Assembly: GCA_017467275.1 (NCBI GenBank) | Contig: JAFTSN010000007.1 | Span: 1 to 32,324 of the forward strand | Origin: Clostridia bacterium | GTDB taxonomy: Bacteria > Bacillota > Clostridia > Christensenellales > Borkfalkiaceae | Length of the DNA stretch: 32,324 nucleotides | Direction: 5' to 3' | Shown here: in pieces, positions 9,255 through 27,486 of the stretch | Position numbering within the stretch: the first letter of the stretch is position 1 | Layout of the letters: the number at the start of each line of letters is the position of its first letter | The notes under the pieces: generated by a model | Told to the model about the DNA's origin: nothing | Databases searched by the model: none | What the model saw: only the letters and a program-made list of their open reading frames with translations | Program-made: the position numbers and the translations under genes

Positions 9255-9992
9255 TTATTTTATTTTGATTTTCAGCCCCTTAATGGAATTCACTGCGGAA
9301 ACAAAAAACAAAAACGCCACCGTATTCACGACGTTGTTAATAATACACAAACGGATAATCAGGCGATAAAAAATATACCAAACATAGGTAACCTCTCCGA
9401 TATAGACGCCAAACACCTTGGCAAACCCGTTTTTTAACGTTTTAAACGCAAGCTTTTTAACATATTTATTGTAGATATAATACCCGCCCGTTTCTATCCC
9501 CACCGAACAGACAAATAAAACAATCACGGAAACAATCAATGCCTTTATGTAAACACCGCCTCTGCATTTAATTGTTACATTGCACATAATCATTCCCGAA
9601 ATAAACCCCGCAAAGGCTTTGGAGAGTCCCACCCAAGGGAAATAGGGAAATCCACGGCTCGTAAAAAGCAAATAGCATAAAAGGTCGCCGATAAAGGCTA
9701 TGGAGAAGCCGTAAACGGGTCCAAATACCGCGCCCGACAAAAGACACAATGCTAAACAGAGCGAGATTACATCCGTACTTCCTCCTATCAACACGGGATT
9801 GGGAACCGTAAGAAAACCGTTTAAAACCGTGCATAATGCCGTCATCATGGCAACGTAAGCAATTTGTCTGCCCATCGATTTTTGAGAAAGGATAAATTCG
9901 GAAAAAAACATTTTCCGAATCCGCTCCTTTAAGAGAGGCTTCTCTTGGGAAAAAGTCTCCGACGTATTAATCCGATCGCTTTTGTAATTCAT
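9255..9992 (-). CDS. folT: ECF transporter substrate-binding membrane protein, probably folate (FolT-like)
   Basis: Membrane S component of an energy-coupling factor transporter, which borrows the shared EcfA/EcfA'/EcfT module encoded elsewhere. It has about six hydrophobic segments, with the AYVAMMTALCTVLN helix after a polar N-terminal stretch of about 40 residues, and the segment FPWVGLSKAFAGFISGMI, which recurs in folate-type S components. At 245 residues it is longer than the usual 170-200. The substrate call rests mainly on the tetrahydrofolate riboswitch directly upstream. No strong Shine-Dalgarno sequence precedes the ATG, because the riboswitch terminator and its T-run end only 4 bases before it. 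It is a single-gene unit with its own terminator. Confidence 0.88.
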   Translation of the reverse strand: MNYKSDRINTSETFSQEKPLLKERIRKMFFSEFILSQKSMGRQIAYVAMMTALCTVLNGFLTVPNPVLIGGSTDVISLCLALCLLSGAVFGPVYGFSIAFIGDLLCYLLFTSRGFPYFPWVGLSKAFAGFISGMIMCNVTIKCRGGVYIKALIVSVIVLFVCSVGIETGGYYIYNKYVKKLAFKTLKNGFAKVFGVYIGEVTYVWYIFYRLIIRLCIINNVVNTVAFLFFVSAVNSIKGLKIKIK

Positions 9993-10044: not shown

Positions 10045-10157
10045 AGAGTCTCCCCGTTCTTCAAGCGGACGCGCCACAGCACCGCAGAAAGTTTTCCCTT
10101 CTTTCGTCCACCGACAACGTCCCGTTCGGTGACACTTTACGCGCTTATGGCTACTCT
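10045..10157 (-). promoter_or_regulatory. Tetrahydrofolate (THF) riboswitch aptamer
   Basis: The minus-strand RNA carries the conserved blocks of the class: AGAGTAG at the 5' end, GCGCGTAAAGTG, CGGGACGTTGTC, GGTGGACGAAAG, TGCGGTGCTGTGG and a 3' ACTCT that closes P1 with the 5' AGAGT. THF riboswitches in Clostridia typically precede folT-type transporter genes, and here folT follows directly. Binding of reduced folate would favour the terminator at 9997-10025 and switch off uptake. Confidence 0.88.
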
Positions 10158-10167
10158 ATTGCTATCT

Positions 10168-14374: not shown

Positions 14375-14644
14375 TTAATCGTTCCAGCTGTTATAGCTTC
14401 GTCTGTTGCAAGAATACGCTCTGCCGTTACAGCCCCCAGAATTATAGCCGTTTGTATTCCAAGCCGTGGCGCAGCCGCTACAATGGCAATGGCAACAGCG
14501 GTTACAAGTGTTACCGCAGCCGTTGTTATAGCCGCAGCCGTTATCGGTCAAAGCAGTAATCAGCGAATGGAGCAGATTGTAAACGTATCTACAATCGTTG
14601 TTACGGGTATTCGTATTCCAATTATTACAAGTGTTACAACACAT
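14375..14644 (-). CDS. Cys/Asn-rich small protein
   Basis: 89 residues containing 14 cysteines and about 20 asparagines. It begins MCCNTCNNWNTNTRNN, carries a hydrophobic LLHSLITALT segment at about 24-33, and has a dense cluster CNRCCHCHCSGC near residue 50. No known family is recognised. Similar Cys-dense short proteins in Firmicutes are often spore coat, exported disulfide or metal-binding proteins, but nothing proves any of these. A real gene is supported by AGAGGAC 9 bases before the ATG, a -10-like element further up and a strong terminator 10 bp after the stop. The CHC repeat pattern is unlike a random shadow. It follows the DUF2828 gene on the same strand. Confidence 0.7.
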   Translation of the reverse strand: MCCNTCNNWNTNTRNNDCRYVYNLLHSLITALTDNGCGYNNGCGNTCNRCCHCHCSGCATAWNTNGYNSGGCNGRAYSCNRRSYNSWND

Positions 14645-14725: not shown

Positions 14726-16279
14726 TTAAACTAGATCTCTGACACTTTCAAGAACGGGAGCATAACGCTCGGAAGCAAGCTGCTCAAGCAAGCATTCAAG
14801 CGGGTCGATCTTACCGCTCAACACCATGTTCACGACAATCGGGCTGAACCCGCTGACGAGCGCAACGCCAAGCTTGTTCTCTTTCAAAGGAACAGTGTTC
14901 GAGCGAGAGCAAATGTTCCAGAACACCAAGCGGGGAAGTTTATAGCCATGCTTTTCATAGCGTTCGCCAATCACTTCAAAAAGTCTCTTGAACTGCGGGG
15001 TATTTACGTCGTTTCCGAATCGACTAGAAACGGCGCAGGCGTTGAATTCCATATCCGAAAGGATCAAAATGTTCCTCGGCAAATCGCTTTGCGACATTTT
15101 TCCGTTAATCGCCGTCTTTAAAATGAGATTAAACACTGCCTCGATGTTGGTATCTTCCGCCTCGTCGTGAGAAAGCGCAACGCCAAGTTTATCGTGCAGG
15201 CTCTTACAATGAGAAAAATCGACAAACTGCGGGTTTCTGCTAAACGTGATATACCGATCCTTAAAGGGACCTGAGGAGCGCTCCGAAAAATAGACGGCAA
15301 GCGCATTGGCAACGTCAAGCGCGGAAATATTCGTCTGCCCCACTCTGCTCGTCATGCTCCCCGAGCCGTCTGCCACGCAGATCGTGTCGCTTTGTCCTTG
15401 AACGTAATCGGGAAGCGCCTTCCAAAGAGCCTCCAGCGTTTCGTCGTAAGGACAAAGATCGGGCCAAAACGAATCCCTGCCTATATATTTATTGACGATA
15501 TCATGCGGAAACAAAACGCCCGCATTGATCTTCGCTTCGCCCTGTTCCAGCTTTTTGAGAAATTGGTCACGACGCGCTTTGTCGTTACGAAGAAAGGAAT
15601 TTGCGTAGAGCAGATTAGCGCGCGAGGGCACCGTTTCATAATTGATTTCGCCCCACGCCTTTTTACTCATTTTGACCTCGATTACGTCCGAATAAGCACG
15701 AAGCGAAGCGAGCGTTTTCCGATATTCCTTTTCCGTTATTCCCCAAGCCTTGATCAGCATTTTCGCATATGCCTTCGTCTTTAAAGACGTGGCGTTTGCC
15801 GAGGGCATCCATTTCGCACAAAGACTGATCGAACGGCCGTTTTTCATATCCTTTACGTCGGCGTCGAGCTGTTTTTTTAAAAGCGCGCATACGGCGTCTT
15901 TCAGTCCCGTTTCAAGGAGGGGCAGAAGATTGTCCCAACGGGTATATTCCGCAACGAGCGGCAAGAGGCGTTCGGCGATCTTCGGTTCGCTCTCGGCAAG
16001 GAATTTCATGCCGATCTTAAAGAGCCGACGCTCCCCCAACCCGCCGCGCACGTCGCCAGCAAAAAACAGCCACAAAACCGCCAAGAGTTTATTTTCATAA
16101 AACGCCTTGACAAAATATCGCTTGACGTTTTCCTCGGTACAGTTTCTAAAAGAGGAAACGGCAAAATTCATATCAAGCAACGCATTGCACGTCGTACGGT
16201 AGCCCAAGGCGCCGTTTTCGGTGACAGAGAGGTTAAAATCCTCTTCCAGTGTTCGCTTTAATTCGTCGATGAATGACAT
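14726..16279 (-). CDS. DUF2828 family VWA protein (Ro60/TROVE-like architecture)
   Basis: 517 residues. The N-terminal half is all-helical and holds the family's signature stretches: FFAGDVRGGLGERRLF (72-87), LCAKWMPSANATS (153-165), and the YETVPSRANLLYANSFLRND segment near 215-233. The C-terminal half is a VWA domain: MIDAS D304-G-S306-G-S308 (ADGSGSM), T377 in EDTN and D409 in ILSDMEFN, then LPRLVFWN and LVSGFSP near the end. This matches DUF2828. A helical ring-like region plus VWA of about 520 residues is also how Ro60 is built, which is an architectural resemblance, not homology I can prove. AAGGAGG stands 7 bases before the ATG. Two tRNA-like RNAs sit 57 bp upstream on the same strand. 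Confidence 0.85.
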   Translation of the reverse strand: MSFIDELKRTLEEDFNLSVTENGALGYRTTCNALLDMNFAVSSFRNCTEENVKRYFVKAFYENKLLAVLWLFFAGDVRGGLGERRLFKIGMKFLAESEPKIAERLLPLVAEYTRWDNLLPLLETGLKDAVCALLKKQLDADVKDMKNGRSISLCAKWMPSANATSLKTKAYAKMLIKAWGITEKEYRKTLASLRAYSDVIEVKMSKKAWGEINYETVPSRANLLYANSFLRNDKARRDQFLKKLEQGEAKINAGVLFPHDIVNKYIGRDSFWPDLCPYDETLEALWKALPDYVQGQSDTICVADGSGSMTSRVGQTNISALDVANALAVYFSERSSGPFKDRYITFSRNPQFVDFSHCKSLHDKLGVALSHDEAEDTNIEAVFNLILKTAINGKMSQSDLPRNILILSDMEFNACAVSSRFGNDVNTPQFKRLFEVIGERYEKHGYKLPRLVFWNICSRSNTVPLKENKLGVALVSGFSPIVVNMVLSGKIDPLECLLEQLASERYAPVLESVRDLV

Positions 16280-16336
16280 CTTTTTCCTCCTTTCCTTTTT
16301 AGGCTAAAATTTTGAGCCGAATTGACAAAAAAAGAT

Positions 16337-16448
16337 GAGAGTGGCAGGACTCGAACCTGCGACCTCGTGCTTAGCAAGCATTTGGGTTGCTGTTGAAGGC
16401 TTTGTCAAGTCTCCATTAAACGCGCTCTACAGACTGAGCTACACTCTC
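16337..16448 (-). ncRNA. tRNA-like RNA 1, with 40-nt insert in the anticodon arm
   Basis: 112 nt. Acceptor GAGAGTG pairs with CACTCTC; D arm GCTC/GAGC; T arm GCAGG-TTCGAGT-CCTGC. The D loop AGTCTGTA lacks the normal GG pair. The anticodon arm is interrupted: CGT, then 40 bases (16419-16380), then GC, loop TTGCTAA and GCACG. With the insert removed, a perfect 5-bp stem and a 7-base loop appear with anticodon GCT (Ser), but the variable loop is the short AGGTC, whereas bacterial tRNA-Ser has a long arm. The discriminator is A and CCA is not encoded; T7 follows 3 bases after the acceptor. It may be a tRNA with a tiny intron or a tRNA mimic. Confidence 0.6.
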
Positions 16449-16466
16449 ATTTCCTATTAAAATGTT

Positions 16467-16587
16467 CGGGGTGGCAGGAGTCGAACCTACGTCTCGGACA
16501 CCATCTATAAATAATATACTGTGCGGTTAAAGACTTTTCCAAGTCTCCATTTATATTCCGCGCGCTGCCAAACTGCGCCACACCCCG
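16467..16587 (-). ncRNA. tRNA-like RNA 2, with insert in the anticodon arm
   Basis: 121 nt. Acceptor CGGGGTG/CACCCCG, D arm GCGC-AGTTTGGCA-GCGC and T arm GTAGG-TTCGACT-CCTGC are all good. Between D and T arms lie 71 nt instead of about 23. The outer CGG/CCG could start the anticodon stem, but I found no placement that gives a 7-base loop with U33, so no anticodon can be called. The insert includes AATGGAGACTTG and a perfect hairpin AGACTT-GGAA-AAGTCT. It shares about 25 of 31 positions with the insert of RNA 1. The discriminator is A and CCA is not encoded. It precedes RNA 1 by 18 bp on the same strand and shows no clear promoter, so it may be read together with guaBA. Confidence 0.55.
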
Positions 16588-16643: not shown

Positions 16644-17621
16644 TTATTCCCATTCGATCGTTGCCGAGGGTTTCGGACTCAAATCGTAAAGCACGCGGCA
16701 AACGCCCTTAACTTCGCTCAAAATACGGTCCGTGATCTTTTTAAGGATCGCCCAATCGATTTCGGGAACGGTGACCGACATGGCGTCAACCGTGTTGACG
16801 GCACGAATGATCACAGGCCAATCGTAAGCTCGCTTACCGTCGCGAACGCCCGTGGAGCGGAAATCGGGAATGACCGTGAAGAACTGCCAAACCTTGGAGG
16901 TAAGTTCCGCCTTATCAAACTCCTCGCGCAAGATCGCGTCTGCCTCGCGGAGGGCATGCAGCCTGTCACGTGTGATCGCACCCAGACAACGAACGCCAAG
17001 CCCAGGACCAGGGAAGGGTTGCCTATCCACCATGGACGCGGGCAAGCCGAGCGCTCTACCCACCATACGAACCTCGTCCTTATACAAAAGACGGACGGGC
17101 TCAACGAGCTCAAACTGCATATCCTCGGGAAGTCCGCCGACGTTGTGATGCGCCTTTACGCCGTCGCTTTCAAGAATATCGGGATAAATCGTGCCCTGTG
17201 CCAGGAATGATATCCCCTCCAGCTTACTTGCCTCTTCGTCGAATACCTTAATGAACTCGCCGCCGATGATCTTTCTCTTCCTTTCGGGCTCGTCCACCCC
17301 CGCAAGAAGATCAAGGAAACGGTCGGTCGCGTCGACGTAGATAAGGTTCGCGTCGAGCTGGTCGCGGAAAACCTCGATCACCTGCTCACTTTCGCCCTTT
17401 CTCATAAGACCGTGATTGACGTGTACGCAGACAAGCTGTTTACCGATTGCTTTAATGAGGAGCGCAGCAACGACCGAGCTATCCACCCCACCCGAGAGCG
17501 CAAGCAGGACCTTTTTGTCTCCCACTTGTGCACGAACTTCGGCGATCTGCTCCGCGATAAACGCGTCCGCGAGCTCCTTGGTGTTGATTCTTTTCATAGA
17601 ATCGGGTCTTGTGTTCATCAT
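16644..17621 (-). CDS. guaA: GMP synthase, ATP pyrophosphatase/synthetase subunit without glutaminase domain
   Basis: Converts XMP to GMP by adenylating XMP and accepting ammonia. The PP-loop SGGVDSS is at residues 43-49 and FPGPGLGVRCLGA is in the dimerisation part; the C-terminus KPSATIEWE is typical. The protein has 325 residues, against about 510 in most bacteria, because the N-terminal class I glutamine amidotransferase half is absent. Archaea split this into two genes, but no glutaminase gene is next to it here (the 99-bp gap to guaB holds none). A partner elsewhere in the genome or direct use of ammonia is likely. The start at 17621 follows AAGGAGA by 8 bases; 17618 is also possible. 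It follows guaB in the same direction. Confidence 0.93.
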   Translation of the reverse strand: MMNTRPDSMKRINTKELADAFIAEQIAEVRAQVGDKKVLLALSGGVDSSVVAALLIKAIGKQLVCVHVNHGLMRKGESEQVIEVFRDQLDANLIYVDATDRFLDLLAGVDEPERKRKIIGGEFIKVFDEEASKLEGISFLAQGTIYPDILESDGVKAHHNVGGLPEDMQFELVEPVRLLYKDEVRMVGRALGLPASMVDRQPFPGPGLGVRCLGAITRDRLHALREADAILREEFDKAELTSKVWQFFTVIPDFRSTGVRDGKRAYDWPVIIRAVNTVDAMSVTVPEIDWAILKKITDRILSEVKGVCRVLYDLSPKPSATIEWE

Positions 17622-23875: not shown

Positions 23876-26434
23876 TTATATATTCCTACTCTCATGACAG
23901 GAGAAATACACAAGTTGTATCTCGGCGGAAATTACTCTCAAAACCGCTTGCACCTTTTGCATATGCTCGGCGTCGAGATTGACAAACGGGTCGTCGAGAA
24001 TTAAGAACGGCTTTTGCTCACGATACATATTTTTGATAAGCGCCAAACGGAAGCAAAGCGCACAGACGCTCCTCTGCCCTGCGCTCAAATGCTTTTCACT
24101 GCGCTCTTTCCCGCCCCGCTCAAAGCGGAGCTCGAAGTTCTTTGTCATTGTCACCTTTTCGCCGAGCGTTTTTTCAATCAGCGAGGAATAATACAAAAAT
24201 TCCTCCTTAATCGGCTGAACATACCTATCCTTAAGCCGTTGGTCGGCTTGGAGAAGAAGCTCTATCGTTGCCGTCAGAAGCTTATACCGTCTCTTATACT
24301 CCGCAAGGCGCTCCTCTGCTTGCTCCTTATCGCGAAGATATCCGTCCAAACGCTCAAGCTCATATTCGTCCGCGACGATCTCCTGTTTTAAAATGCTATT
24401 CCGCTTACGAAGCGCGTTCAATTCCTCGTTTAACGCCGTCAAATCGGTCTTTCCCTCTGTAGGCTTTTCCGTGAGCCCCTTGTCACGCTTGAAGCTCTCT
24501 GCGTTTGCAACGTTTTTTTGCAGCGATTGTTGTGCCCAATCGTAGGTGCGGATATCCTCCAAAATACGGTCGATGTTCAAATCGGACAGACGGTATTTGT
24601 CAATATACGCTCCGATTGCCGCACGATTTTCTTCGATCGCGATTGCTAATTTTTTACGCTCCTCCGCCGCTCCCGTTCTTCTAGCTCGCAACGACGCATA
24701 TTCGTCCAGCGCGCTCCTTAAATCGGAAAGATTTTTTAAGTAATTCTCTCCCTCCAGACAGTATTCACGGAAAAAGGCAGCAAGAAAAGTCTCCCTCTCC
24801 CGTTTCAACGTCTCCTTTTCCCCGATCAAACGCTGCCGCTCCGCTTCGTTTTCCGTAAAGGCATTGTAGGCAGAAAGGTCGCTTTTGAGCGTTGCAAAAT
24901 CAAAGAGTACACCGTTGCCCGACGAATAACCAAGAGGCAGAAGCAGGGCTTTCAAGGCGTCCTCGGCTGAACGCGCGTCCTCCTCCTGTTTTCGTCTATC
25001 AGGATTTTCAAGAGCATGCTCTTCCTTTTTAGAACCGCTCGCTTTTTTGTTGAGATACAGGAATCCGTCTGCAAACAAAACGACGGCTCCCGCACAAAGC
25101 GCCGCGACGCCTGCAAGCCTTTCCACAAATAGAAGCACAGCCCCGACAACAACAGCCAAAACCGCGAAAAGCGCCGTCAGAAGATAGCCTTTCCGCTTGA
25201 TTTTTTCAGGCGAGTTTGAAGCTGTCCCGCTCGAAAGATAGACGGGTGCTTCTTCCATTTCTCGCTTCGCCGTTTTATATTTTTCAACGTCCGCTTCCGC
25301 TTTTTTAAGCTCCTCTGCCGAGGGAACACGGACGGAAAATTTTGCATGCAGCCTCTTTTCCGCCTCCGAAAGAGAGCGCTCGCGCGCCATTCTAATCTCT
25401 GTGTCCAGCGCGGCAATCGTTTGGATCGACGCCTCTGCGTCCATCATCTCCCGCTCTGTCGGTACACCGTTTTTAAAGACGTCCGCAAGGCGGGAAAGAG
25501 AAATCTCGTCCTCTTTTGAAAAACTTCCGTTTGCCGCCTCAACCTCGTATTTTTCCTCTCGAAGCAAACGCTCTCTCACCGCAAGCGTCTCTTCTTGCGT
25601 AGGAAGCCCCGCAGGATATTTTCCCTCGAGCGCGGCAAGCGTTTCCCTGTCCGCACGAATGAGTGATAACAAATATTCATAGTGCGCCCAATCACTCAAA
25701 ACCTCGTTTTGCCGCTGCGCAACAACGGCGCGCTCTGAAAGCTCTTTTATGCGCACTTCCGCACTCTCATACGCTTCGTATTTCAGCTGGAGCGCCGTCT
25801 GCACCGTCTGCGCGCCTGCAATCTTTTCTTTAAGCGCGAGAATACGTGCCGATTCCTCGCTGATCTTGTCCTTTCCCGCGCGCGCTTTTTTATATTCCTT
25901 GCTTGCTTTTTCAAGCAAAGCAAGTGCGTTATCGAGGTTGCTCTCCTCGTCCGTGCCTTGCAAAAAACGATTCAGCTTATCGTTGATGCTTGAGGTCGAC
26001 GCGATCTCGATATCCTCACTGCCGATAAACGCCGTCCTCTCAAACGACGCCTTATCAATTCCGAAAACACTCCTACCGATATTCTCGCCGAAAATATCGG
26101 TCTTTTCTCCGTCCTCGTAGACAGTGACCTCGTCCATGGTATCGCTCTTTTCGCCAAAAAAGCGTTCGATTTTATAGGTTTTGCCATTCATCGAGAAGGT
26201 CAAATTCCCTCCGAAGCGTCCTCCGTCGAAGGGATAAAAATGCTGACGGTCGCAAAACTCCTTGGTGTTCTGCCGATAGGGCTCGAGACCGTAAAACATT
26301 GCCTTTATAAAGGAAGCCAGCGTCGTTTTTCCCGCGCCGTTCGCCTCGCAAAAGGAGGTTATACCACTGTCAAAGGCGTATTCCTTTTGTTTGAGTTTGC
26401 CGAAGTTTTCGATATAACAAGAGATCAGCTTCAT
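23876..26434 (-). CDS. YhaN-like ATPase, SbcC-related
   Basis: 852 residues. Walker A is at 30-38 (EANGAGKTT), a long coiled coil fills the middle, and the signature HLSAGQRS starts near 782 with Walker B LILDD at about 811-815. Two adjacent hydrophobic helices near the centre (about residues 420-470, LLTALFAVLAVVVGAVLLF) interrupt the coiled coil; this is a feature of the YhaN subfamily and not of SbcC/Rad50. A zinc-hook CxxC was not found. I infer an ATP-driven partner of the nuclease upstream, acting on DNA ends, possibly at the membrane. The start at 26434 overlaps the nuclease stop by 4 bp (ATGA), so translation is coupled. Confidence 0.88.
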   Translation of the reverse strand: MKLISCYIENFGKLKQKEYAFDSGITSFCEANGAGKTTLASFIKAMFYGLEPYRQNTKEFCDRQHFYPFDGGRFGGNLTFSMNGKTYKIERFFGEKSDTMDEVTVYEDGEKTDIFGENIGRSVFGIDKASFERTAFIGSEDIEIASTSSINDKLNRFLQGTDEESNLDNALALLEKASKEYKKARAGKDKISEESARILALKEKIAGAQTVQTALQLKYEAYESAEVRIKELSERAVVAQRQNEVLSDWAHYEYLLSLIRADRETLAALEGKYPAGLPTQEETLAVRERLLREEKYEVEAANGSFSKEDEISLSRLADVFKNGVPTEREMMDAEASIQTIAALDTEIRMARERSLSEAEKRLHAKFSVRVPSAEELKKAEADVEKYKTAKREMEEAPVYLSSGTASNSPEKIKRKGYLLTALFAVLAVVVGAVLLFVERLAGVAALCAGAVVLFADGFLYLNKKASGSKKEEHALENPDRRKQEEDARSAEDALKALLLPLGYSSGNGVLFDFATLKSDLSAYNAFTENEAERQRLIGEKETLKRERETFLAAFFREYCLEGENYLKNLSDLRSALDEYASLRARRTGAAEERKKLAIAIEENRAAIGAYIDKYRLSDLNIDRILEDIRTYDWAQQSLQKNVANAESFKRDKGLTEKPTEGKTDLTALNEELNALRKRNSILKQEIVADEYELERLDGYLRDKEQAEERLAEYKRRYKLLTATIELLLQADQRLKDRYVQPIKEEFLYYSSLIEKTLGEKVTMTKNFELRFERGGKERSEKHLSAGQRSVCALCFRLALIKNMYREQKPFLILDDPFVNLDAEHMQKVQAVLRVISAEIQLVYFSCHESRNI

Positions 26435-27486
26435 GCTTCCACCTCTCTGCCGCCGAGCGCCTTTAAGCCGTAAGCGACAATCTGCGCTTTTTCCTCGTCC
26501 GTAAATTCCCCGCTCGCACAAACCGCGCGCACAAACTCGCCTTTAAGCGATGCGTCGCCCGCGTATGCCGAGACGTCAATCCGTTTGCGCGTTCGATCCT
26601 TCACGTCGAGAAATTCACACTCGGAAGCGAGATATTTTTTCACGTCGTCTGCCAGCGAATCAATGTGTGCGTCCACCTCGCCGATCAGCTCAAGGCGATA
26701 GATGTTTTTGCGCTCGAATTTAATCTCACGCGCACGCAAGGAAACGGCGTAGGCATCGGAGAGCCCCGTGACGTCTAATTGCACTTTAACAATCTTACAC
26801 TCGGAAAATGGCACGAAGGCATGCGTTATCCTTTCGCTTACGTCGACAACGATAAAGCCCTTTTCGCCCGTCTCGTCAAACCCCCTGCCCTCCAGACAGC
26901 CGCAATAGGCATATGTTCCGCGGTCGTCAAGCTTGCCCGACGAATATTCATGGATATGCCCAAGCGCAAGATAGTCGATACTCTTTTCACGGAGCTTGCC
27001 AAGATTTATTTTATCCTTGCCCAACGAATCGCCGATCTGACCGTGCAGCATCACGACGTTCTTTCGCACAGGATTTAACGAGAGCGTGGAATAGATCGCC
27101 GCACAGTTTTCGCGCGTTAGCTCTACGCCGCTGACGGTGACGTCCTCATAATCATAAGACGTCCAATCGGAAGAAAAGGTTTTTAAGTTCGCAAGCGTGC
27201 GCCGCTCGCCCTCGGCGTCGTGGTTTCCGCATAAGTATAAAAAGTCAATCTGTGGATTGTTTTCAATCACGCTGAAGAAAAAATCCTTGTCCTTTTTAAA
27301 GGGCTTATCGGAATCGAACACGTCGCCCGCCAATAAAATGACCTCGATTTTTTCAGCCCTTGCATAATCGACCATACGCTTAAAGGAGTTTCTGACCTCC
27401 TGCTTGCGGCTTTCAGAAACTTCCTTTGAGAATTTTGAATCGATTTTTGAGCCGAGATGAATATCGGCGCAATGAATAATTTTCAT
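26431..27486 (-). CDS. YhaO-like metallophosphoesterase (DNA repair exonuclease, SbcD-related)
   Basis: 351 residues. The catalytic metal-binding motifs are present: MKIIHCADIHLGSKID (D8, H10), LLAGDVFDSDKPF, LCGNHDAEG, MLHGQIG and LALGHIHEYS. These are the five blocks of the SbcD/Mre11 nuclease family. A C-terminal capping part follows. The start at ATG 27486 is preferred because the family begins right there. A TTG at 27507 extends the frame by 7 residues. The ribosome site is weak (CGGA). It lies 21 bp after the alpha-galactosidase stop. With the YhaN-like gene it forms a nuclease/ATPase pair. Confidence 0.9.
   Translation of the reverse strand: MKIIHCADIHLGSKIDSKFSKEVSESRKQEVRNSFKRMVDYARAEKIEVILLAGDVFDSDKPFKKDKDFFFSVIENNPQIDFLYLCGNHDAEGERRTLANLKTFSSDWTSYDYEDVTVSGVELTRENCAAIYSTLSLNPVRKNVVMLHGQIGDSLGKDKINLGKLREKSIDYLALGHIHEYSSGKLDDRGTYAYCGCLEGRGFDETGEKGFIVVDVSERITHAFVPFSECKIVKVQLDVTGLSDAYAVSLRAREIKFERKNIYRLELIGEVDAHIDSLADDVKKYLASECEFLDVKDRTRKRIDVSAYAGDASLKGEFVRAVCASGEFTDEEKAQIVAYGLKALGGREVEA

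Follow-up and report, generated by a model that had tools for sequence, protein, structure and literature searches.

Tandem tRNA-like RNAs with an interrupted anticodon arm as probable Y RNA-like partners of a DUF2828 Ro-like protein

What are two adjacent, tRNA-shaped RNAs that carry similar extra sequence inside the anticodon arm? The window (the whole analyzed stretch of 32,324 nt from a Clostridia bacterium) encodes both on the minus strand, RNA2 first and RNA1 second, between guaA (ORF 16644-17621) and a gene for a 517-aa protein. The features discussed below are as follows.

14726-16279, minus: DUF2828 plus DUF7788 (vWA-like) protein, 517 aa, Ro60/TROVE-like (Pfam, phrog_850, hhalign)
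16336-16448, minus: RNA1, unpermuted tRNA-type RNA, 113 nt (covariance model R1, 92.2 bits, as an R1 seed; anatomy; ARAGORN with introns)
16381-16420, minus: 40-nt insert in the 5' strand of the RNA1 anticodon stem, its ends sliding by 1 nt
16395-16414, minus: RNA1 side hairpin GGAGACTT-GACA-AAGCCTTC, putative protein-binding helix
16386-16395, minus: RNA1 CAACAGCAAC motif, 3' of the side hairpin
16466-16587, minus: RNA2, tRNA-type RNA, 122 nt (Rfam RF00005, 42.6 bits; R1, 81.0 bits, as an R1 seed)
16529-16548, minus: RNA2 side hairpin GGAGACTT-GGAA-AAGTCTTT
16522-16529, minus: RNA2 TAACCGCA motif

Both RNAs turned out to have the complete acceptor, D, and T stems ascribed to them in a preliminary description of the locus, and in both the anticodon arm is interrupted, unlike that of a functional tRNA. 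The anticodon stem of RNA1 is split (CG, then TGC, opposite GCACG), its loop is UUGCUAA, and its discriminator base is A. Removal of the 40 nt that had been described as extra leaves a 73-nt tRNA with the anticodon stem CGTGC/GCACG and the loop TTGCTAA. RNA2, whose body we take to resemble tRNA-Pro, retains an outer anticodon stem (CGGA/TCCG) and has a loop without U33. The lack of an encoded CCA in either RNA and of GG in the D loop of RNA1 was confirmed, as was the homology of the inserts, which share the element AATGGAGACTTG--AAAG-CTT-AAC-GCA (16388-16417 and 16522-16551) with 25 of 30 positions identical and a hairpin in each. The 6-bp stems proposed to close the inserts are possible pairings, yet they are absent from the minimum-energy folds. 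Comparative structure places the side hairpin within the 5' strand of the split anticodon stem, of which RNA2 has the outer part. The folding z-score of RNA1 was -1.6. A promoter scan returned four promoters against 2.5 expected, with none upstream of RNA2.

A comparison with Rfam, suggested at the outset, recognized RNA2 as a tRNA (gathering cut-off, 29 bits), a match overlooked by a fast scan of the whole window, and gave no tRNA match for RNA1 in the window scans. Plain ARAGORN found neither RNA. With introns allowed it found both, RNA1 as 'Ser gga' and RNA2 as 'Tyr ata', with an anticodon placement unlike that of the manual reading.

We then determined what the adjacent gene, which along with its Y RNA connection had gone unseen in the preliminary description, encodes. 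Its start codon lies 56 nt from RNA1, and both RNAs fall within 308 nt upstream of it on the same strand. The protein matched DUF2828 (5.4e-31) and DUF7788 (3.4e-43) in Pfam, with a weak vWA match, and phrog_850, 'RNA-binding protein' (1.1e-128). The TROVE domain (PF05731) is absent from it by sequence, DUF2828/DUF7788 being present instead, and there was no TROVE match in G000. A sequence search of the PDB gave no significant match (two LpoA sequences at E 0.11-0.14, TROVE below them at 0.75), and PADLOC and NCBIfam searches returned nothing informative. When a profile of 52 DUF2828 sequences was compared with one of four TROVE proteins using hhalign, the two aligned with Prob 89 and E 2.2e-6 over 249 columns, covering the C-terminal half, vWA included, and the homology rests on this alignment. 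By profile, the product of the adjacent gene looks like a distant relative of TROVE/Ro60/Rsr (PF05731; vWA_Ro60, PF25045); by Pfam, in which DUF2828/DUF7788 and TROVE are separate families, it lies outside the TROVE family.

Among 50,697 phage records, 680 encode a DUF2828 protein, several mycobacteriophage copies being annotated 'Ro-like RNA binding protein', and, at E <= 1e-20, in 5 of 200 genomes of the order. Listeria phage CKA15 encodes a member of the same family (H19), CKA15_055 (OR088597.1). Its published description reports an HHpred connection to Rsr and the presence of the protein in purified particles, where 20 peptides covered 57% of it (PMC12282133). That this protein is injected together with RNA is speculation.

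Allowing three mismatches, the insert pattern occurred in 1 of 57 genomes of the genus, namely the window's own, and in 2 of 396 genomes of the order, the window's and G180, both of which belong to the five carrying DUF2828. In G180 it lies inside a tRNA-like RNA beside the same DUF2828 gene, which is cut by the contig end. Since the only other match in the 57 genus and 396 order genomes is such an RNA, the similarity of the inserts is not due to chance. In 80 relatives of guaA, the flanking sequence that was fetched, which in several cases stops shortly after the gene and in some is shortened by a contig end, showed no such RNA, and a conserved guaA-linked RNA was rejected on that basis. Unseen in these flanks and present beside DUF2828 in G180, the RNAs seem to travel with the protein rather than with the neighborhood. 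A DNA similarity search with both RNA genes in relatives gave only short matches to tRNA arms. The exact insert pattern, with 19 specified bases, had zero matches in viral contigs because the letters of the hairpin vary.

A structural search covered DUF2828 loci of viral contigs, of named phages, and of two plasmids, with a script requiring acceptor, D, and T stems and an anticodon arm that contains both a hairpin and ACNGCRA. It returned 57 raw candidates in 104 sources (778 kb); the 80 guaA control loci, 468 kb in all, yielded a single candidate of poor quality. Quality filtering and the discarding of identical copies left 41 unpermuted RNAs in 26 of the 104 sources. All lay on the strand of the gene (41/41), comprising 39 of 39 in viral and phage loci and those in the window and in L142. 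In the locus with the closest viral protein (L175, 65% identity), three such RNAs lie upstream of the gene, no more than 660 nt away. The window RNAs have everything that defines this class: a tRNA cloverleaf with a side hairpin and ACNGCA in its anticodon arm, and a DUF2828 gene close by on the same strand. The earlier suggestion that the two RNAs form a tRNA-derived family and are not ordinary tRNAs is supported: they have many relatives, which share a motif and are linked to a single protein family.

Thirty-seven of the 41 RNAs, together with RNA2, were aligned (A4, 38 RNAs). The invariance of ACNGCA in A4 is by construction, all members but RNA2 having been selected with ACNGCRA, and the selection was partly by pairing too. 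In A4, 89.9% of the cells were paired, compared with 58.6% in shuffled and 39-45% in slid alignments, a figure that leans upward with the pairing-based choice of members, and compensatory changes occurred in all six helices. The side hairpin was paired in 90.2% of cells, with double changes in all seven of its pairs. Unguided RNAalifold recovered the side hairpin, both the acceptor stem and the T stem, and all but one of the four D-stem pairs and did not predict the split anticodon stem, which was paired in 61% (outer part) and 73% (inner part) of cells. Because A4 members had been chosen partly by pairing, a second pairing test was run on 75 candidates selected by sequence motif only: 51 formed the hairpin, 48 a 7/7 acceptor stem, and 45 both, where shuffled sequences reached 19.6%, 3.0%, and 0.5%. 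One candidate came from the control loci, and it had neither hairpin nor acceptor.

The anticodon stem is split yet paired in 24 of the 38 RNAs, RNA1 and RNA2 included, and is not kept in the other 14. Among the 24, anticodons are diverse, a purine occupies position 37 in 23, and U33 is present in 21, whereas about 7 would have it by chance (mean T frequency, 0.28). Two other tRNA-like RNAs near DUF2828 genes were observed, one seemingly without an anticodon arm (L161, 3830-3886; 57 nt, 41.9 bits) and one in which the arm seems to be replaced by hairpin and motif (L171, 1692-1782).

The covariance model that had been proposed at the outset as a check was built from A4 (R1); the window RNAs and the RNA of G180 (71.3 bits) are among its seeds. 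Over 107 DUF2828 loci, R1 scored 63.5 bits or more 60 times, in 31 loci and always for RNAs of 110-141 nt, 38 of which had served to build the model. These counts were made by hand; L142 and L152 are one place, L178/L179 are identical, and L212/L215/L218 have equal scores. The remaining 76 loci had no match at that level. Control loci (ordinary tRNAs, guaA) reached 57.1 bits at most. Below 63.5 bits, ordinary tRNAs were mixed with some long RNAs, and ordinary 73-nt tRNAs reached 63.7 bits. Of 15 long nonseed matches inspected, 12 of them at 63.5 bits or more, 4 contained an exact ACNGCRA, and the other 11 had, by eye, UCAGCAA, UCAGCAU, UCUGCAA, ACAGCAU, or ACAGCUA in its place. Across 200 genomes of the order, in which about 18 candidates per genome were scored, R1 exceeded 64 bits only in the window's genome (two matches) and G180 (one); the next best scored 63.7 bits and was 73 nt long. 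Simple motif stem-loops lie near the DUF2828 gene in G112 and G042, two of the five DUF2828 genomes of the order, and no convincing one was seen near the gene in a third, G235. A further candidate RNA in the G180 locus (L152, about 1100-1290, minus), with GUCGAGUCUUGCAAUAAGGCUUCUGACUGCAACC and the possible pairing GGGGACG/CGUCCCC, sits between tRNA genes and the DUF2828 gene.

We also searched in the opposite direction, from the RNA alone. A pattern of D arm, ACAGCAA, and T loop gave 55 matches in 54 stretches of viral contigs, 44 of which (in 43 records) were well structured. For 21 of these, from 20 records, the fetched stretch also encodes DUF2828. When unstructured matches are counted too, 26 share their stretch with DUF2828, and every one is on the strand of the gene. 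Of the 23 structured records without it in the stretch, 12 have DUF2828 elsewhere in the record, bringing the total to 32 of 43 structured records, compared with 680 of 50,697 phage records overall; at least three of the 32 (L301, L302, and L329) were already in the DUF2828 set. Nine of the 11 records without DUF2828 are shorter than 57 kb, and the other two measure 133 and 95 kb.

The same motif also occurs outside cloverleaves. Open stem-loops beside DUF2828 genes carry it, in several cases as AAAG...-NACAGCAA...CUUG. We counted 210 of them among 97 loci, 79 of which had one or more; 197 share the strand of the gene and 13 lie opposite, compared with 30 (14/16) in the 80 guaA control loci and a shuffled mean of 32. 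In loci with full flanks they peaked in the 500 nt just before the gene (57) and just after it (29). Sixteen further RNAs with the motif and stem had the YrlA-like permuted order of T arm, closed acceptor, and D arm; the control had 0. That of phage Porthos matched the YrlA family model (RF02553) with 47.8 bits (E 5.6e-10; family cut-off, 69). A permuted RNA is also present in PJN02, whose host is Bacillus subtilis, and in Gabriela, whose host is M. smegmatis. When the permuted RNAs were rotated in silico, 13 of the 16 matched the A4 profile colinearly, from position 2-7 to 110-118, while without rotation 11 of the 16 matched it in two pieces in swapped order. For example, L245 scored 74.3 bits rotated and 36.9 and 23.9 bits unrotated. 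L154, L155, and L193 gave a partial match even after rotation. Because 13 of 16 match nearly end to end once rotated, the two kinds of RNA look like a single fold in two circularly permuted versions. By eye, a Subdoligranulum plasmid (L162, about 2397-2494) combines tRNA and motif in yet another, third manner, in which a tRNA-like fold with D, anticodon, and T arms sits atop a AAGGCACC..GGUGCCUUG stem with AACAGCAA.

How do these RNAs compare with known ones? Phage Ro-like proteins and bacterial Y RNAs that mimic tRNA have been described (PMC7824862, PMC7765460, PMC8394870, and PMC7790460). YrlA and other bacterial Y RNAs (RF02553), the ligands of Rsr/Ro60, are likewise encoded beside a Ro-like protein and, like the window RNAs, contain a tRNA-like module in which the acceptor, D, and T arms are present. 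The protein-binding helix of YrlA stands where an anticodon arm would be, which is the place of the putative site here. The two differ in topology. YrlA runs from T arm through closed acceptor to D arm, with its ends in the Ro-binding stem, whereas the window RNAs keep the tRNA order, end at the acceptor, and have the hairpin inside. They appear to be an unpermuted counterpart of YrlA-type Y RNAs in topology, sharing the circular order of elements and differing in where the ends lie. In the window scan, RF02553 matched neither RNA1 nor RNA2 as a unit. Its one match there (22 bits, E 0.019) joined the T arm of one gene to the D arm of the next and was rejected. Below the cut-off, RF02553 also matched 13 of 41 genomes, and it responded in 7 of 14 control genomes as well. 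We suspect the matches in relatives to be tandem tRNA genes (a T arm followed by the next D arm), which could mislead searches for Y RNAs.

The Y RNAs read next to true TROVE genes (L282 and L284) are permuted and, by eye, have the stem motif GAGGCGC..GGGUUACUUCG / CCUCGG, which is absent from the window RNAs; these have the hairpin and YNACNGCA instead. For phage CKA15, Y RNAs upstream were offered as one explanation for abundant transcripts, and the accessible text gives no motif or structure for them (PMC12282133). That record contains three simple stem-loops at 25289-25553, outside the transcript region given there as 26,236-26,727. The latter, the one abundant region with coordinates in the accessible text (two others are without), has no such motif. 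In the part of the open-access literature that was searched, we found no description of the unpermuted form, with its tRNA-order topology, open acceptor, and presumed protein site in the anticodon arm.

We consider it likely that RNA1 and RNA2 are Y RNA-like, tRNA-mimicking noncoding partners of the downstream DUF2828/vWA Ro-like protein. The tRNA fold, the common motif, the covariation, the association with the gene, the same-strand arrangement, and the relation by circular permutation, all read from sequence, argue for this. The RNAs would be transcribed and would keep the insert when mature, with the hairpin and YNACNGCA in the anticodon arm as a putative protein-binding site. The DUF2828 protein, presumed to be a ring like Ro60, would hold hairpin and motif, and the tRNA-shaped part would project outward, where it could gate the ring or recruit and tether enzymes that recognize tRNA, possibly RNase P, modification enzymes, nucleases, or RNA ligases. 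This model parallels what has been described for YrlA and Rsr with PNPase (PMC8394870).

Several other explanations have to be weighed against such a partnership. Extra sequence in the anticodon arm is familiar from archaeal and eukaryotic tRNA introns and from bacterial group I tRNA introns. That the two are ordinary tRNAs, or tRNAs with a standard group I-type intron, is hardly conceivable: the tRNA body of RNA2 does match Rfam, but the RNA1 insert measures only 40 nt and is inside the anticodon stem, not the loop. Ordinary tRNAs were rejected on the insert and the R1 scores, and a group I or other known intron on the lack of any Rfam intron match up to E 1. Decay of tRNA pseudogenes with repeated insertion would accord with the missing CCA, the D loop of RNA1 without GG, and the absence of the RNAs from 56 other genomes of the genus. 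It is very improbable given the compensatory changes in six helices, which contradict it, the pairing of the sequence-only set far above shuffles, and the recurrent link to one protein family. A more serious proposal, though still an unlikely one, is that these are intron-bearing tRNAs from which a protein-guided pathway cuts out the insert, the halves then being ligated into functional tRNAs. RNA1 is a clean 73-nt tRNA once the insert is removed, the 24 split stems mostly keep U33 (21) and a purine at 37 (23), and RNA ligases are encoded in 9 of 102 viral and phage DUF2828 stretches (two of them query loci), compared with 0 of 80 controls, and near the G180 DUF2828 gene as well. On the other hand, RNA2 lacks U33, 14 of the 38 RNAs lack the split stem, and RNA1 would combine a Ser anticodon with no long variable arm in a genome that already has an ordinary tRNA-Ser(GCU). 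We consider splicing unlikely because motif and stem occur also in non-tRNA RNAs and in permuted tRNAs, where excision yields no tRNA, and because no RtcB was found in the incomplete (79%) host genome. The insert further differs from those of tRNA introns in occupying the 5' strand of the stem and in having a motif that is linked to a protein.

The split but intact anticodon stems could mean inheritance from recent tRNAs, splicing, or the display of anticodon loops as bait. The last of these, in which protein-bound intact loops of many isotypes serve as decoys or sensors for anticodon nucleases, is compatible with a Y RNA-like partnership, to which it adds a function, and we regard it as doubtful, if less so than splicing. 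It is consistent with the retained U33 loops and diverse anticodons, with the phage setting and the RNA ligases near some loci, and with the suggestion of Hughes et al. (PMC7790460) that YrlA could competitively inhibit an anticodon nuclease. The loops may, however, be mere inheritance from recent tRNA ancestors, and both the 14 RNAs without a split stem and the U33-less loop of RNA2 speak against it. Equally tentative is the wider proposal of a phage ribonucleoprotein in which one Ro-like ring displays tRNA-shaped RNAs whose intact anticodon loops represent many isotypes and act as baits or sensors for anticodon nucleases and tRNA repair, the RNA shuttling in evolution between the two circular permutations. 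On that view, Y RNAs would be tRNAs whose anticodon arm gained a binding site for the protein before the permutation took place.

With RNA1 and RNA2 as Y RNA-like partners of the DUF2828 protein, the 'RNA-binding proteins' of hundreds of phages would gain a concrete, searchable RNA partner and motif. The presence of both circular forms beside one protein family links tRNA genes to Y RNAs directly and so makes the origin of tRNA mimicry in Y RNAs testable. Phage and bacterial tRNA counts may include such nondecoding look-alikes.

Two observations concern other parts of the window. Just downstream of the DUF2828 gene, an 89-aa ORF (14375-14644, minus) is very rich in Cys and Asn and may not be a gene. 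A THF riboswitch (10061-10160, minus; 63.2 bits) lies just upstream of ORF 9255-9992, whose membrane-protein-like product is, at a guess, a folate transporter.
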